From assembly GCA_001770015.1 (NCBI GenBank), contig MEQB01000002.1, positions 82,528-138,635 of the forward strand: 56,108 nt of DNA, written 5' to 3'. The stretch is from Bdellovibrionales bacterium RIFOXYC1_FULL_37_79. Lineage in GTDB: Bacteria > Bdellovibrionota > Bacteriovoracia > Bacteriovoracales > Bacteriovoracaceae. Positions 31,102-38,978 of this stretch are shown piece after piece. The translations under genes and the position numbers were made by a program. Every line of letters begins with the position of its first letter. Position 1 is the stretch's first letter. Below the pieces are notes generated by a model. It saw only the letters and a program-made list of their open reading frames with translations, did no database searches and had not been told where the DNA came from.

Positions 31102-32211
31102 ATGCTACCACCAAGTTACAGGTTTGAATATGGTAATCAGTTGATTATGGAAGATAGAAATTATTTTGTTTTGCAGACAGTCTTGATCATTTTTTTATTG
31201 GCAGGTGCCTGTGCTAAACAAGCTACCGTGGCAGACATTCCGTCATTACCAGTCATTGATACGGAAGTTAAGGAAAACATCTTCGAAAAAATACCAATAA
31301 GGGAAGGTCCAAGTGCTGTAAACACCCCCAAGGTTATAGAATTTTGTAAAAAAATTGAGAATAAATTTGCACAATTGGGATGGGTTTCTGCCCGTTGTGA
31401 GAAAAATAAATGGCATCATGTGCGAAATTCCTCTCTTGGCAATCCCTTGGTGTGGACGGTTTTCGGTGACGAAAATGCCCACACGACAGAAAAAAAAGAT
31501 TGCACGATGTTTTTTTGTGGTGTTCACGGTGATGAGACGACTACCATTAAATTCTGCTTTGACTTGATAGACACTTTATTGGCCAAACCACCGGAGTATT
31601 TTAATGAAAAACTGGTGGTGGTGGTGCCGATTGTAAATCCCGATGGGTTTTTCACTGCTCCCTCTACCAGGACTAATCATCGGGGCGTCGATATCAACCG
31701 GAATTTCCCAACCAAGGACTGGAATAAGAATGCTCTCAAATTCTGGGTGCAAAAGTTTAAAAAAAATAAGCGTCGTTTTCCCGGGCACCATGCCATGAGT
31801 GAGCCTGAAACTGTCTTTCATGTAAATATTATCAAAAGATATAAGCCAACTAAGATTGTTTCATTACACTCTCCCTTAAGTTTTGTGGATTACGATGGGC
31901 CGGGAGATTTTAAAAAAGAGACGAATAAAGTTGGAACTGAAGCGAGTAATTTACTTTTACAAATGAGTGAAAGTTCTAAAAAATTTCGTATTTCCAATTA
32001 TCCCTTTTTTCCAGGAAGTTTGGGTAATTGGGCGGGCAACGAAAGGGATATTCCAACCTATACACTCGAATTGCCGTCCTCCGATCCACTGATGGCCACT
32101 CGTTATTGGGTTTTGTTTCAAGAAGCTATTTTTAAAGTGATTGATAAAGATTTAAATGTTTTGGATAGTTCCCGGAACCAGAAAGTGGATATTGAAAAAT
32201 TTGAGGACTAA
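31102..32211 (+). CDS. Zinc peptidase of family M14, MpaA-like, membrane-anchored or lipoprotein
   Basis: The M14 signature is clear: H142-G-D-E145, the third ligand H256 in VSLHSPLS, the substrate-binding NRNF in GVDINRNFP, and catalytic E323 in YTLELP. Similarity to MpaA suggests cleavage of gamma-D-Glu-diaminopimelate bonds in peptidoglycan peptides (inference). The N-terminus has a hydrophobic segment (about 22-36) followed by Cys37, a weak lipobox (AGAC). Initiation at Met16 (31147) would give a cleaner signal, though neither start has a strong ribosome-binding site. It is divergent from the RimK-like gene. In predatory bacteria such enzymes could work on prey or own cell wall. Confidence 0.88.
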   Translation: MLPPSYRFEYGNQLIMEDRNYFVLQTVLIIFLLAGACAKQATVADIPSLPVIDTEVKENIFEKIPIREGPSAVNTPKVIEFCKKIENKFAQLGWVSARCEKNKWHHVRNSSLGNPLVWTVFGDENAHTTEKKDCTMFFCGVHGDETTTIKFCFDLIDTLLAKPPEYFNEKLVVVVPIVNPDGFFTAPSTRTNHRGVDINRNFPTKDWNKNALKFWVQKFKKNKRRFPGHHAMSEPETVFHVNIIKRYKPTKIVSLHSPLSFVDYDGPGDFKKETNKVGTEASNLLLQMSESSKKFRISNYPFFPGSLGNWAGNERDIPTYTLELPSSDPLMATRYWVLFQEAIFKVIDKDLNVLDSSRNQKVDIEKFED

Positions 32212-32359
32212 AATACTCGGATAATCTTTTCTAGCAGTTTTTTTTGCTGCCTAACCCGTTAATATTGTTATTATATATTATTTTTTATTATTATATTTAA
32301 TAACTTTTAAGGCGTTCATTCGTTTTACTTGCATATAAATAAAGAAAGTTAGGAAAAAC

Positions 32360-32914
32360 ATGCTTTCAGATAATGATTTAGCCATAGGAATTAAAAAAGG
32401 TGATCCGGATACCTTTACTTGTTTGTATAATCAGTATTCTTTTAAATTGTTAAATCATATATACAAACTAGCAGGTAATAGGGAAGAAGCGGAGGAAATT
32501 CTAGCTGATGTTTTCCTGACCATAATTAAAAAAATTTCCTTCTATCAAGAAAGTAATGTCGAGGGGGCAACGCTTAAAGCATGGATGTTTCGGATTGCCA
32601 GCAATAAAACCATTGATCATTTAAGAAGGAAAAAAAGAGAGCAACTGGTTAAACACAAGTCAATCATAGAGGATTTTGGTACCAGCATGGAAGATAGAAT
32701 TAACCTAAAAAGTGATCTTGGTTATGTGGATTTACTGATAAAAAAGTTACCCCTACTGCAACGTACGATAATGTCCTTGAAGGTGGTTGAAAATTTTAGT
32801 TATATGGAAATTTCAAGGGTAACAGGTTTAAGTGTGGATATGATCAAGCAAATTCTTTTCAAGGCACGATGTAATTTAAAAAATGAGTTCAACTTACAAG
32901 AGAGGGTAAGGTGA
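32360..32914 (+). CDS. ECF-type RNA polymerase sigma factor
   Basis: Region 2 spans about residues 18-92 (LYNQYSFKLLNHIYKL, then AWMFRIASNKTIDHLRRKKR, the -10 recognition helix). Region 4 is about 124-175 with the helix-turn-helix FSYMEISRVTGLSVDMIKQILFKAR. Regions 1 and 3 are absent, as in extracytoplasmic-function sigmas. AGGAA precedes the ATG. Its stop overlaps the start of the next gene (GTGA), a common arrangement for sigma/anti-sigma pairs. A TATAAA lies at 32334-32339, but the -35 is unclear; an ECF-specific promoter may be involved. Confidence 0.92.
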   Translation: MLSDNDLAIGIKKGDPDTFTCLYNQYSFKLLNHIYKLAGNREEAEEILADVFLTIIKKISFYQESNVEGATLKAWMFRIASNKTIDHLRRKKREQLVKHKSIIEDFGTSMEDRINLKSDLGYVDLLIKKLPLLQRTIMSLKVVENFSYMEISRVTGLSVDMIKQILFKARCNLKNEFNLQERVR

Positions 32915-33408
32915 AAAATAAATATTCGAAGATAACTCTTTGTGCTCATTTTGACGGGGAACTCTTAGAGAAAGTTTCAAGTAAGATATCCCAGGATCTC
33001 GTGGAGAATGCCGAATCTGTAAAATTCCTGGAAGAAATTGCTGAAATTGATAATCACTTTAATGCCGCTACCCCTGTAGTGATTAGTGAAAAGACGAAGG
33101 AGAGAATATTTCGGGAAGCTTTTAATTTGCTGGATAAAAAGAGGGCGCCTCAAAAAGAAAAAATTCAATCTATTGATCTAAAAATCTTTAAAATTAGAGA
33201 AATATTTAACAATATATCTTTAGAATTGCAATTTAGCACCGTGGCTTTAATGATCCTGATCTCGGGAACCTTGCTGATTGGCCGGGGTAAAATCATCCCC
33301 GGAAAATTCGAGGCTTTCAAGGTTGAAACCACGATCTACTCATACCAGGAAATTGATAATAACGTTGAAGATAAGAATGATTTAAATGATACAAGCGAGG
33401 AAATATGA
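32911..33408 (+). CDS. Putative anti-sigma factor, single-pass membrane protein
   Basis: It starts with GTG inside the sigma gene stop (GTGA). About 107 charged cytoplasmic residues precede one hydrophobic helix (about 108-125, STVALMILISGTLLIG), followed by about 40 periplasmic residues rich in Asn, Asp and Glu. The order sigma gene then overlapping one-helix protein is the usual anti-sigma layout. No zinc-binding H-x3-C-x2-C motif is present, and similarity to known anti-sigma domains is not obvious, so the call rests on context. Its stop overlaps the next ATG (ATGA). Confidence 0.65.
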   Translation: MKNKYSKITLCAHFDGELLEKVSSKISQDLVENAESVKFLEEIAEIDNHFNAATPVVISEKTKERIFREAFNLLDKKRAPQKEKIQSIDLKIFKIREIFNNISLELQFSTVALMILISGTLLIGRGKIIPGKFEAFKVETTIYSYQEIDNNVEDKNDLNDTSEEI

Positions 33409-34139
33409 AAACATGGTTCTTTTTTATGATGATTTTTTTATCAAGTATAGCAATCGCCAATGGGTTGCAAATAAAAGACGGCAAAGTTTTGCCATTTGAA
33501 TTCAAAAACGTGTCCTTGGAAGTTGCCATAGAAGAAATTTCGAATGTTCTAGATCTTTCGGTTGCTTATAATAAAAGTGACTTAAAAGAAAAACTTCCGG
33601 TTACTTTGAAAGTAGTCAGTGCCATAGAAAAAGAGGAGCTGAAGGAATACTTTTTTAGAATCTTGAGCATGCATAATATGTCATATTTAGAAGAAGATTT
33701 TGGTGGCATAATCATGCCAACTAGAAATTCAAGAGATTTTTATATCCCACTATACGAAGGACAAAAAACACCTGATACAAATAATAATGTCCTAAGCTCT
33801 TACCGCATGCAATACCCTTTTGGTGGTATGTTTATTAGAAACATGCGACCAGATTTATCCAGGTATGGCCGGATTATGGATTTTCCCAAGGCCCGGTCAA
33901 TCTTAATTTATGATACCGGAAAGAAGATTCAATATTTTCTTGCCAGTCTAAAAGAATTTGATACCAAAGAGAATTTTGATCGTTATATTGAAAAACGGAA
34001 AGAGGACGCAATTAAGGAATCCAAGAAATCCAAAGAAGAGAAGAAAATTGCAATGCTTGAAGACCAGATTAAAGAATTGGAAATGAGTAGCAAAAAGAGT
34101 CAAGAAATAAACCCCACGCCTAAAAATGACAAAAAATAA
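33405..34139 (+). CDS. Periplasmic STN/secretin N0-N1-like protein without a barrel domain
   Basis: A Sec signal (1-19, cleavage after AIA or ANG) leads to a segment at about 31-105 with the STN/N0 pattern (FKNVSLEVAIEEISNVLDL...PVTLKVV). A second segment at about 135-188 resembles a secretin N1 domain (RNMRPDLSRYGRIMDFP, then SILIYDTGKKIQYFLASLKEFD). The C-terminal 50 residues are a highly charged coiled coil. No secretin or TonB-receptor barrel follows (only 244 residues). It is coupled by ATGA overlap to the putative anti-sigma gene and its neighbour is a paralogue, so it may present signals to the anti-sigma factor (inference). Confidence 0.7.
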   Translation: MKTWFFFMMIFLSSIAIANGLQIKDGKVLPFEFKNVSLEVAIEEISNVLDLSVAYNKSDLKEKLPVTLKVVSAIEKEELKEYFFRILSMHNMSYLEEDFGGIIMPTRNSRDFYIPLYEGQKTPDTNNNVLSSYRMQYPFGGMFIRNMRPDLSRYGRIMDFPKARSILIYDTGKKIQYFLASLKEFDTKENFDRYIEKRKEDAIKESKKSKEEKKIAMLEDQIKELEMSSKKSQEINPTPKNDKK

Positions 34140-34151
34140 GGAGAAAAAAAT

Positions 34152-34871
34152 ATGTTGAAAATTATAATTACCTTTTTATTGACGATTACAGCTTTGAGTA
34201 TTAATGCCAGGGAAATTAGCTTTATAAAAATGATTGATGAGTACGCAAAAAATTATAAATTGAGTTATTCAATTTCCCCTGGCGTAAAGGATTTTGAGAT
34301 CACTTTGAGGGGAAGGAAAATTGATAAACAAGAGGATGTATTTAAGATTATTACAACGATGGGAGCGCTTAACGGTTTGGGTGTGGCAGTAGATAAGTCA
34401 GGTGGTTATTTTAAAATTCTGTCTGGCAAAGACATGAGAGAAGAAGATCTTTCGATCCTAACCGATGAAAAACTTATCCCTGATAACTATCAATATATAC
34501 GGTTTATTTATAATATAAGGTATCTAGATTCCCGCGAAATAGTCAGAGGGCTCAGGCCATTGATGAGTCGTTATGGGAGGATTAGGGATGATGGCATTGG
34601 TAATAAGGTGGTGATGATAGACACGGCAAAAAATATTTTAAAAATTTTAAATGTTATTAAAACGCTTGATATACCCGAAACTCGAAAATATGCAGAAGAG
34701 TTGCATGAATTCAATGAAGAATTTCAAAAATTATCTGAATCCAGAGAAGGCTTTCTAAATGTTTTAGCAAAACAGCATGCTCTTTTTATCATCCTGTTCT
34801 CTCTGATCTTTTTGATTATAGGTTTTATGATCAGAGGATATATGATTAGAAGAATTGAAGGGGGACTTTAG
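34152..34871 (+). CDS. Membrane-anchored STN/secretin N0-N1-like protein, paralogue of the preceding gene
   Basis: After a signal-like N-terminus (1-19) come an N0/STN-like segment (about 22-91) and an N1-like segment (about 117-175) whose LRPLMSRYGRI closely matches MRPDLSRYGRI in the preceding protein. A strong hydrophobic helix lies at about 209-231, followed by a basic tail (RGYMIRRIEGGL), predicting a periplasmic N-part and cytoplasmic C-end. AAGGAG precedes the ATG and the gap to the previous gene is 12 bases. The operon ends here, with a hairpin at 34906-34926. Confidence 0.7.
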   Translation: MLKIIITFLLTITALSINAREISFIKMIDEYAKNYKLSYSISPGVKDFEITLRGRKIDKQEDVFKIITTMGALNGLGVAVDKSGGYFKILSGKDMREEDLSILTDEKLIPDNYQYIRFIYNIRYLDSREIVRGLRPLMSRYGRIRDDGIGNKVVMIDTAKNILKILNVIKTLDIPETRKYAEELHEFNEEFQKLSESREGFLNVLAKQHALFIILFSLIFLIIGFMIRGYMIRRIEGGL

Positions 34872-34926: not shown

Positions 34927-35057
34927 GTGAAAAATATACACATTTATGAATATGTTATTTACGTACTGTAATAACTTACATTATTGGAATATATTGAAAT
35001 CAAAAATTTTAATGTTTATAGTGTGATTTTAAGAAGTGTTTTTTGGGGAGGAAAATT

Positions 35058-35432
35058 ATGAAAAAATTAACGTTGATCGGATTGGTATTTTTAGTTTCGA
35101 TGTCATCTTTCGCAGCTACCAAACAAGCACGCTACGCTTGTGAAACAGTCTGGGGCCAGGATGTCGGCTCAATTACACTCTTTGGAGATCCTGTAGAAAA
35201 TATTTATACAGAAGTAGCGAGTAATGGAAATGCTATGAGCTTTAGGTCTGGAGTTACATATCGAGAATATTTATTTCTTTATGATGATGCTATGTTTAGT
35301 CAAAAAAGCTATGTTCTGGAAGTTGTAAATGATCAGGGCAGTTATGAAAAATTTGAAATGTTTGTTTACGACAAAGATCGGATTGTTCTTGGATCAAGGA
35401 AAATCTCTATGTATTCTTGCTCTCAAATCTGA
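35058..35432 (+). CDS. Small exported protein, function unknown
   Basis: The ATG at 35058 follows a GGGGAGG ribosome-binding site. A Sec signal (1-19, cleavage after SFA) precedes about 105 mature residues, with two Cys (YACETVWG and YSCSQI at the C-terminus) that could form a disulfide. The mature chain looks beta-rich (alternating YREYLFLYDD, SYVLEVV). No family was recognised. It stands alone in a stretch of otherwise non-coding DNA, which suggests an accessory gene. Confidence 0.75.
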   Translation: MKKLTLIGLVFLVSMSSFAATKQARYACETVWGQDVGSITLFGDPVENIYTEVASNGNAMSFRSGVTYREYLFLYDDAMFSQKSYVLEVVNDQGSYEKFEMFVYDKDRIVLGSRKISMYSCSQI

Positions 35433-36846: not shown

Positions 36847-37049
36847 AATGTGGATAGGCTAAGTATATCCGACGGTTGAGGTCTTCAATCCGACGAGATT
36901 TGCATGATCAGCAGATTTTTTAACTAACTAAAATCAAAAGAAATTAAGATAAATTGCCAAACATTTTGGGCGATTTTTCTTTAGATTTATCTAAAGGTAC
37001 CGAAGAATCCCTAGAGATTTTTTATGTCATAACGTCAAAGGGGATGGTT

Positions 37050-38978
37050 ATGTTGCTTTCAAGTTTTTCAGAATTTAAGTTTTATCAATCATTTAGAATA
37101 CCAATTGAAGAAGCTGACGATCTTCGCTTTTTAGTGGAGATGGACGATCAAGCTGGAAAATCTGAGTATATTGAGGACGCCCGGATTAAAGATTTAAGTG
37201 TGACCGGGCTGGGGTTTCAAACCAAAACCAGAATCTCAGTGGGAACGCCACTGGATATTTCATTACAATTTAAAAAGGTGCATCTCGATTTGACGGGTAG
37301 AGTGGTGCGGGCCTTTTCGGTCGGGACCGGGGATGAAGAACTCATTTACGGTGTGGAGATAGATGAGGAGAAGAAAATTTATCGTTTTTTAGAAAATTTT
37401 ATTTCCAGTTTTTCAGCGGAAAGATTAAAGGAATGCCTGGTGGAATCCGCCTTGAAAGAAAAATATACCAAACCCAGTGATGGTTTTGAAATGTTTTCGC
37501 TTTTGTTGTCCCTGTTTAAGGATATCACCAATTTTGCAGATAAGGATGGGTTTGTCGATAGCATGCTTTCCGAGGTGGTGCGTATTTTAAATGCCCAAAG
37601 GGGATCAATTTTTTTAATTAATCCGGAAAAAAATGAATTGGAAGCAGCCGCAGCGATTGGGGTGAATAAAGAGGATCTGCGCTTTGATTACCGACTGGGT
37701 ATTGCCGGATCGGTATTTACCACTGGGGTTGCTTTAAATATTGATACGCTTAGGGATAAATCGAGATTTAATGAATTTTTTGATAAAAAATTCAATTACG
37801 AAACCCGTTCGATTATTTGTTATCCCATTCATAATCGGGAAGACAAGGTGATCGGGGTGATTGAGGTTTTAAATAAGAAGAATCAGGATCTGTTTACCGT
37901 GGAAGATGAAAAAACCATGAAGGTGTTGTCACTTATTTTTTCAGCGGTCTTTCATCAATATAATCCGATGACCGAAAATTCCCAGATAAGAAGATTTTCC
38001 AATCCCAGGGCCAGGGATAATGCCATGATTGGTAATACTCCCCATCTTAAATCCCTTAGAAGTAATGTGATCAAACTAAAGGATTTGGATTCCCCAGTGG
38101 TTATTATGGGAGAGATCGGAACTGGTAAGACTTTATTCGCTAAAATTTTACATTTTGAAGGACAAAGAGGACTTCAGTCCATTGAAATCATCGAATGCTC
38201 TGACAAGAATTTGGAAAAGATTGAAGATCAATTATGGGGAGAGGGATCTTATTTGAGCAAGTGTAAAGGTGGTACCGTGATTCTTCGGGATATCTCCAAA
38301 CTACCAATGCCATCGCAAGAAAAGCTTTTTGATGTTTTGGTGAATCGAAGATTACCTCATTTGGACAATTTGACTTTGGATGTAAGAGTCATTGCTACTA
38401 CTTGTGATAATTTGGATCATATGGTGGATGATGGGGAATTTCATCGTGACTTGTATGATTTTTTAAATAGGTCATATATTCATCTTGAGCCACTCAGACG
38501 AAGAGAAGAGGATATTCCACTATTGGTTGATTATTTTTTAAGACACGAGTGCAAACGACAGGGGTTGCTACTGAAAAGTTTTTCCACCAGGGCCATCTCC
38601 AAACTGAGCAATCATAACTGGCCTAGAAATATTGAGGAATTAAAACATTGCGTGGAAAGGGCCGTGCTTTATAATCCCAAAGCTCACATCATCACTGAAT
38701 TTGAACTGACCAATAATTCAGCACCGCTTTTTGATATGTCGGAAAAGGTCAGTATGTTCGGAGATATTCCCTTTGTAAGCGATCATTCGATCACCTTAAA
38801 AGACCGGGTGGCCATCATCGAAAGGGAAATGATTCTGGCCGAGATCAAAAGGTTAAACGGGAATAAATCACAGGCGGCAAAAACCATGGGTATCAGTAGA
38901 GAAGCGCTTCGTAAAAAACTTCTTTTAAGCCGGGAAGTTTTAGACAGTATAAAGTCGCTGGAGAAGAAAGCTGCTTAG
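37050..38978 (+). CDS. PilZ-GAF-AAA-Fis protein resembling a sigma-54 activator without GAFTGA
   Basis: The ATG at 37050 has AAAGGGG six bases before it; the in-frame TTG at 36954 does not. An N-terminal PilZ-like domain (RIKDLSVTGLGF) suggests c-di-GMP sensing. A GAF domain follows (about 160-300 of this start), then an AAA region with a Walker A GEIGTGKT. The GAFTGA loop needed to touch sigma-54 is missing and the Walker B region reads GGTVILRDI instead of GGTLFLDEI. A Fis-type helix-turn-helix (GNKSQAAKTMGISREALRK) ends the protein. It is likely a DNA-binding regulator working without sigma-54 (inference). Its 3' end overlaps the convergent htpX gene by four bases. Confidence 0.85.
   Translation: MLLSSFSEFKFYQSFRIPIEEADDLRFLVEMDDQAGKSEYIEDARIKDLSVTGLGFQTKTRISVGTPLDISLQFKKVHLDLTGRVVRAFSVGTGDEELIYGVEIDEEKKIYRFLENFISSFSAERLKECLVESALKEKYTKPSDGFEMFSLLLSLFKDITNFADKDGFVDSMLSEVVRILNAQRGSIFLINPEKNELEAAAAIGVNKEDLRFDYRLGIAGSVFTTGVALNIDTLRDKSRFNEFFDKKFNYETRSIICYPIHNREDKVIGVIEVLNKKNQDLFTVEDEKTMKVLSLIFSAVFHQYNPMTENSQIRRFSNPRARDNAMIGNTPHLKSLRSNVIKLKDLDSPVVIMGEIGTGKTLFAKILHFEGQRGLQSIEIIECSDKNLEKIEDQLWGEGSYLSKCKGGTVILRDISKLPMPSQEKLFDVLVNRRLPHLDNLTLDVRVIATTCDNLDHMVDDGEFHRDLYDFLNRSYIHLEPLRRREEDIPLLVDYFLRHECKRQGLLLKSFSTRAISKLSNHNWPRNIEELKHCVERAVLYNPKAHIITEFELTNNSAPLFDMSEKVSMFGDIPFVSDHSITLKDRVAIIEREMILAEIKRLNGNKSQAAKTMGISREALRKKLLLSREVLDSIKSLEKKAA

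Follow-up and report, generated by a model that had tools for sequence, protein, structure and literature searches.

A four-gene operon of Bdellovibrionota encoding an ECF sigma factor, a putative anti-sigma factor and two free-standing GspD-like N0-N1 proteins

Results

Organization of the operon

The DNA analyzed here, referred to as the window, is a stretch of 56,108 nucleotides from Bdellovibrionales bacterium RIFOXYC1_FULL_37_79, whose genome (G000) consists of 4.36 Mb in 74 contigs. Positions 32360-34871 of the window carry four tightly packed genes that encode an ECF sigma factor, a putative anti-sigma factor with one membrane helix, and two exported proteins, STN1 and STN2. The sigma gene overlaps the anti-sigma gene by 4 bases, the anti-sigma gene overlaps STN1 by another 4, and a gap of 12 bases separates STN1 from STN2. 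The features of the operon are as follows:

32301-32327, + strand: predicted ECF-type promoter of the operon (-35 TAAC at 32301-32304, -10 CGTT at 32321-32324, then TTA)
32360-32914, + strand: ECF sigma factor, 184 aa (Pfam Sigma70_r2, E 4e-11; Sigma70_r4_2, E 9e-10; orthologues at the same position in the other operons)
32911-33408, + strand: putative membrane anti-sigma factor, 165 aa (its gene overlaps that of the sigma factor; HxxxCxxC and weak zf-HC2 matches in some orthologues, RsiW match of the family profile)
33405-34139, + strand: STN1, exported, 244 aa (N0 about 33462-33734, N1 about 33774-33968, charged helix 33969-34136, no C-terminal TM)
34152-34871, + strand: STN2, exported, 239 aa (N0 about 34206-34427, N1 about 34491-34676, then a long helix, a C-terminal TM and a predicted cytoplasmic tail)
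34773-34832 (approximate) and 34833-34868, + strand: TM and inner tail of STN2, RGYMIRRIEGGL, the STN2 part best conserved between families

A reading made earlier from the sequence alone had described a packed sigma/anti-sigma operon with two exported N0-N1 proteins devoid of a barrel, one of them ending in a membrane helix; the open reading frames, Pfam, the profiles and the structural models confirm this description, and the protein with the helix is STN2.

Just upstream of the operon and on the same strand there is a gene for a zinc carboxypeptidase of the M14 family (31102-32211), which was not seen next to the operon in the relatives examined. Approximately 170 bases past STN2 lies a gene for a small exported protein without a Pfam match (35043-35432), and further on a large ORF (36954-38978) resembling by eye an activator of the sigma-54 type, in which an AAA+ part would be combined with a DNA-binding helix at the C-terminus.

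The sigma factor and its promoter

The sigma factor comprises regions 2 and 4 only, both above the Pfam cut-off. The motif TAAC-N16/17-CGTT was present in the 200 bases that precede the sigma gene at all ten readable loci, the start codons of some of these genes being our own choice. At each of the ten the shuffle p was 0.003-0.007, a value that is not that of a motif fixed beforehand because the motif was read off some of the same sequences. A stricter form, built from the first three loci, occurred once per genome in five of six genomes and always at the operon; the reversed pattern, used as a control, gave four matches in the same six genomes, therefore single matches of the strict form elsewhere would mean little. 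Across the genomes scanned, the strict pattern matched the operon's own promoter alone, giving no sign of a wider regulon. The promoter that precedes the sigma gene has the look expected of ECF autoregulation, and the operon is probably autoregulated.

The putative anti-sigma factor

The protein encoded by the second gene has a single hydrophobic segment at about residues 108-124 (TM about 33232-33282), which follows the predicted cytoplasmic anti-sigma domain and precedes a periplasmic tail of about 41 residues (33283-33405). The copy in the window matched no Pfam family. Among its orthologues, the zinc anti-sigma motif HxxxCxxC reads HLEECESC in G150, HLLVCDQC in G145 and G146, and HIESCDKC in G074; zf-HC2 was matched weakly by three of the six aligned members (best E 0.004), and the family profile matched RsiW with an E value of 0.012. 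From its context and its relatives, the protein is taken as an anti-sigma factor that lost the zinc ligands in the clade of the window.

A FecR domain was not matched in the anti-sigma factor even at E 10, and given that its outer tail has just about 40 residues the protein is not FecR-like. The tail is also poorly conserved and has no recognisable STN or HR domain. The parallel with FecI/FecR/FecA-type signalling drawn in the sequence-only reading fails at this point, since the large FecR-type periplasmic domain is absent.

STN1 and STN2 resemble the N0-N1 region of GspD

Profile searches matched both exported proteins to GspD N0-N1 models. STN2 matched the NCBIfam model TIGR02517 (GspD) with an E value of 3e-15 and STN1 did so more weakly (2e-4); against Pfam Secretin_N, STN2 reached 27.6 bits, the cut-off being 28.2. 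When the family profiles were compared with the solved N0-N1 region of XcpQ/GspD, E values of 2e-9 (STN2) and 2e-10 (STN1) were obtained. Within the families, PF21305 (GspD N0) was matched by five of eight STN1 members and two of seven STN2 members, and Secretin_N by six of seven STN2 members.

The AlphaFold models (pLDDT 81 for STN2 and 68 for STN1, with a low-confidence N1 in the latter) contain the N0/STN fold, and the Foldseek top matches of both were XcpQ/GspD structures. The whole-length TM-scores of 0.26-0.32, with an rmsd near 10 Å or more for most Foldseek matches, are low because of differences in the long helix and in how the domains are arranged. PulD (6hcg) aligned with the STN2 model with a TMq of 0.56 at 3.0 Å, and the isolated N0 of GspD (4jtm) gave a TMt of 0.69 for STN2 and 0.79 for STN1. 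From GspD, N0 and N1 are present in both proteins, and the further N domains and the C-terminal channel domain are absent; in sequence and models a helix is all that follows N1, with no secretin or TonB barrel.

The motif RPxxSRYGRI that the sequence-only reading had noticed is real in both proteins, and it is the sequence that marks the N1 domain of GspD throughout this phylum. At this motif the GspD of the same genome reads RNFRPFMTKNGRI, and other members of the family have RPFMSRYGRI. This GspD is encoded in an ordinary gsp operon (L048), together with GspC (a weak match), GspE and GspF. On the profiles and the models, STN1 and STN2 belong with the type II secretin GspD and not with the STN domains of TonB receptors.

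The C-terminal region of STN2 and the cysteines

Between the two families that carry the operon (f1, which includes G000, and f8), the identity of STN2 rises along the protein, from about 13% in N0 and about 31% in N1 to about 46% in the TM and about 58% in the inner tail, RGYxIRRIEGGL. When the last 40 columns of the alignment were used as a query against 369 genomes of the phylum, nothing but the STN2 of the operon was retrieved at E < 1e-7. The tail is placed in the cytoplasm because positive residues follow the helix (positive-inside rule). In G074 the tail sequence has been lost and the helix kept.

In the three f8 genomes, the only cysteine of STN1 lies directly behind N1, and STN2 carries a cysteine at the corresponding position, as judged with an approximate start for G354; this suggests an STN1-STN2 disulphide pair in these genomes. 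The STN2 of G342 has an extra cysteine at position 24, in the signal-peptide region. The helices of STN1 and STN2 are not consistently of opposite charge across genomes, so this was dropped as evidence of pairing.

Distribution and origin

The profile searches covered 129 genomes of family f1 and 369 of the phylum. Of the 11 loci, which belong to two Bdellovibrionota families, ten have the same four-gene order, seven in f1 (G000, G001, G029, G150, G145, G146 and G074) and three in f8 (G342, G354 and G355), a count that includes G146, whose STN2 is cut by the contig end; at the 11th locus (G086) the contig ends inside STN1, and any upstream genes would lie beyond it. The operon occurs in eight of the 129 f1 genomes. 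G001 belongs to the same genus as G000, and the flanking genes differ among most loci, being common to G145 and G146, which are of one genus. A scan of the wider genome contigs with two short peptide patterns returned two loci, both of relatives. Ten proteins beside or near the operon in other genomes were also scanned, and none was a receptor or a secretin, three of the ten having no assignment, which argues against a neighbouring barrel gene that was simply lost.

In G150, G145 and G074, STN2 is followed by a fifth gene for an exported protein of 150-170 aa; these proteins are alike by eye, and the one that was scanned had no Pfam match. The three f8 loci carry directly after STN2 a gene for an exported ankyrin-repeat protein.

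L080 6800-7315; L081 1370-1825, - strand; L082 6825-7301: exported protein after STN2, f1
L109 6478-7095; L110 4754-5539, - strand; L111 6275-6892: exported ankyrin-repeat protein, f8

The searches also revealed a second, orphan GspD-like N0-N1 protein of about 205-245 aa, with a conserved pair of cysteines, no C-terminal TM and no adjoining sigma gene, found in roughly at least 40 of the 129 family genomes:

L037 5661-6389; L038 5830-6558, - strand; L039 5864-6499, - strand; L040 5724-6416; L041 5978-6637, - strand; L043-L047: orphan N0-N1 gene

The idea that the operon and the orphan gene exclude each other was considered and rejected: seven of the eight f1 carriers seem to be without the orphan, but so are many non-carriers, and the comparison ignores kinship.

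In a tree of the N0-N1 region, GspD (100/99), the orphan proteins (100/98), the f1 STN2 (98/91) and the f1 STN1 (99/94) each form a clade. The STN1 and STN2 of f8 group together (98/97), with an unsure deep placement, and a single clade for all STN2 across families was not rejected (p-AU 0.08).

Discussion

We propose that this operon encodes an autoregulated switch, made of an ECF sigma factor and a membrane anti-sigma factor, that is regulated by two envelope proteins derived from the N0-N1 region of GspD; we consider that this proposal has about an even chance of being correct. STN1 would be a soluble periplasmic partner, and STN2 would be held in the inner membrane through the helix at its C-terminus, the conserved tail reaching into the cytoplasm. 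Both proteins probably pair with each other in the periplasm, and the pair would probably contact the anti-sigma factor, either on its outer tail or next to its TM, and so control its cleavage or the release of the sigma factor. There are precedents for such control in RseB, a periplasmic regulator of the anti-sigma factor RseA (PMC8103513), and in the signalling domain of FoxA, which protects FoxR from proteolysis (PMC11637429). A further precedent is VreA, an N-domain protein without a barrel that is encoded together with a sigma factor and its anti-sigma factor (PMC2729926). It is known that GspC binds the N0 domain of GspD by strand addition (PMC3169554), so the short anti-sigma tail could in principle bind N0 likewise. 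The likeliest input would be the condition of either the type II apparatus (GspC/GspD) or the envelope, because STN1 and STN2 keep the N0-N1 signature of GspD, and a secretion-state signal that reaches the sigma factor, as raised in the sequence-only reading, is possible. On the other side, a comparison by hand gave no confident counterpart in STN1 or STN2 of the residues through which GspD N0 contacts GspC. The operon is not needed for type II secretion, given that many relatives with GspD are without it, and its co-occurrence with GspD is uninformative because GspD is nearly universal in f1 regardless of the operon.

STN1 and STN2 could instead be outputs of the switch that act on the type II machine, as decoys or as assembly or quality-control factors for GspC/GspD, with the signal entering through the anti-sigma factor alone. 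The STN genes are downstream in the same, probably autoregulated unit, the proteins are similar to the GspC-contacting part of GspD (PMC3169554), and the family also has stand-alone GspD-like N0-N1 proteins that are not accompanied by the sigma factor. However, the TM and tail of STN2 are conserved above its N domains, a pattern more in keeping with a connection to the inner side of the membrane than with a purely periplasmic effector, and we regard this explanation as unlikely, if a serious one. Quite unlikely in our judgement is an RseB-like sensor unrelated to secretion, in which N0-N1 would be a mere scaffold that holds or shields the anti-sigma tail, the signal being a general one from the envelope (lipid, peptide or peptidoglycan). 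The order sigma, anti-sigma, periplasmic protein and membrane protein parallels rpoE-rseA-rseB-rseC, the order of the genes in the RpoE system, and among the folded domains of STN2, N0 is conserved least; nonetheless, the GspD N1 signature RPxxSRYGRI is kept in f1.

A third alternative, which takes up the inference of the sequence-only reading that an STN module has been freed, is cell-surface signalling of the FecI/FecR type with an STN domain that comes from a TonB receptor. N0 and the FecA-type signalling domain are the same fold, the STN1 model also matches FpvA, FoxA and PupR/PupB weakly, and VreA is a known case without a barrel (PMC2729926). Against this, GspD ranks first by sequence and by structure, N1 included, the anti-sigma factor is without a FecR domain, and no receptor was found among the neighbouring proteins scanned; this type of signalling is very improbable here. 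A FecA-derived origin of STN1 and STN2 was rejected because their sequence and fold are GspD-like over both N0 and N1. What stands of that reading is a module that is free-standing, duplicated and syntenic with no barrel nearby, and what finds no support is its descent from a FecA-type TonB receptor.

Returning to the switch regulated by two GspD-derived proteins, its closest parallels can be sought in several known systems. The PUMA3 system of Pseudomonas aeruginosa (VreA-VreI-VreR), which has type II secretion genes in its regulon, likewise has genes for an ECF sigma factor and an anti-sigma factor (putative in the operon described here) next to that for a small periplasmic protein with an N domain of the secretin/TonB type and no barrel (PMC2729926). 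In contrast, VreA is one protein, its gene order is A-I-R, and the models of its N and C-terminal domains are based on FpvA and TolA, respectively (PMC2729926), whereas the operon described here encodes two GspD-type N0-N1 proteins, one with a conserved membrane anchor, and in the models of STN1 and STN2 no TolA-like C-terminal domain is present, just a helix past N1. The FecA-FecR-FecI and FoxA-FoxR-FoxI systems share with the operon an ECF sigma factor, a membrane anti-sigma factor (putative here) and a periplasmic partner (proposed here) with the STN fold, but here there is no TonB-dependent receptor and a short anti-sigma tail replaces the domain that contains the STN fold (PMC11637429). 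RpoE-RseA-RseB would be alike in that a gene for a periplasmic regulator lies in the sigma operon downstream of that for a one-TM anti-sigma factor (PMC8103513). STN1 and STN2 agree with the N0-N1 region of GspD in how the domains follow each other, in the sequence signature and in the fold (PMC3169554); GspD differs in that it continues into more N domains and the secretin channel and is encoded in a gsp operon, here L048. The RpoE system differs from ours in having no membrane-anchored secretin-like paralogue and, to our knowledge, RseB is not a secretin N-domain protein.

Conclusions

No published report of this gene arrangement was found in the open-access literature that was searched. If the proposal is true, secretin N domains serve as signalling parts of sigma switches independently of TonB receptors. 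The conserved tail of STN2 suggests that a contact is made at or inside the inner membrane, which is absent from the known STN-based systems compared here, and the operon offers a compact four-gene system for asking if bacterial cells monitor the condition of their type II secretion machinery.
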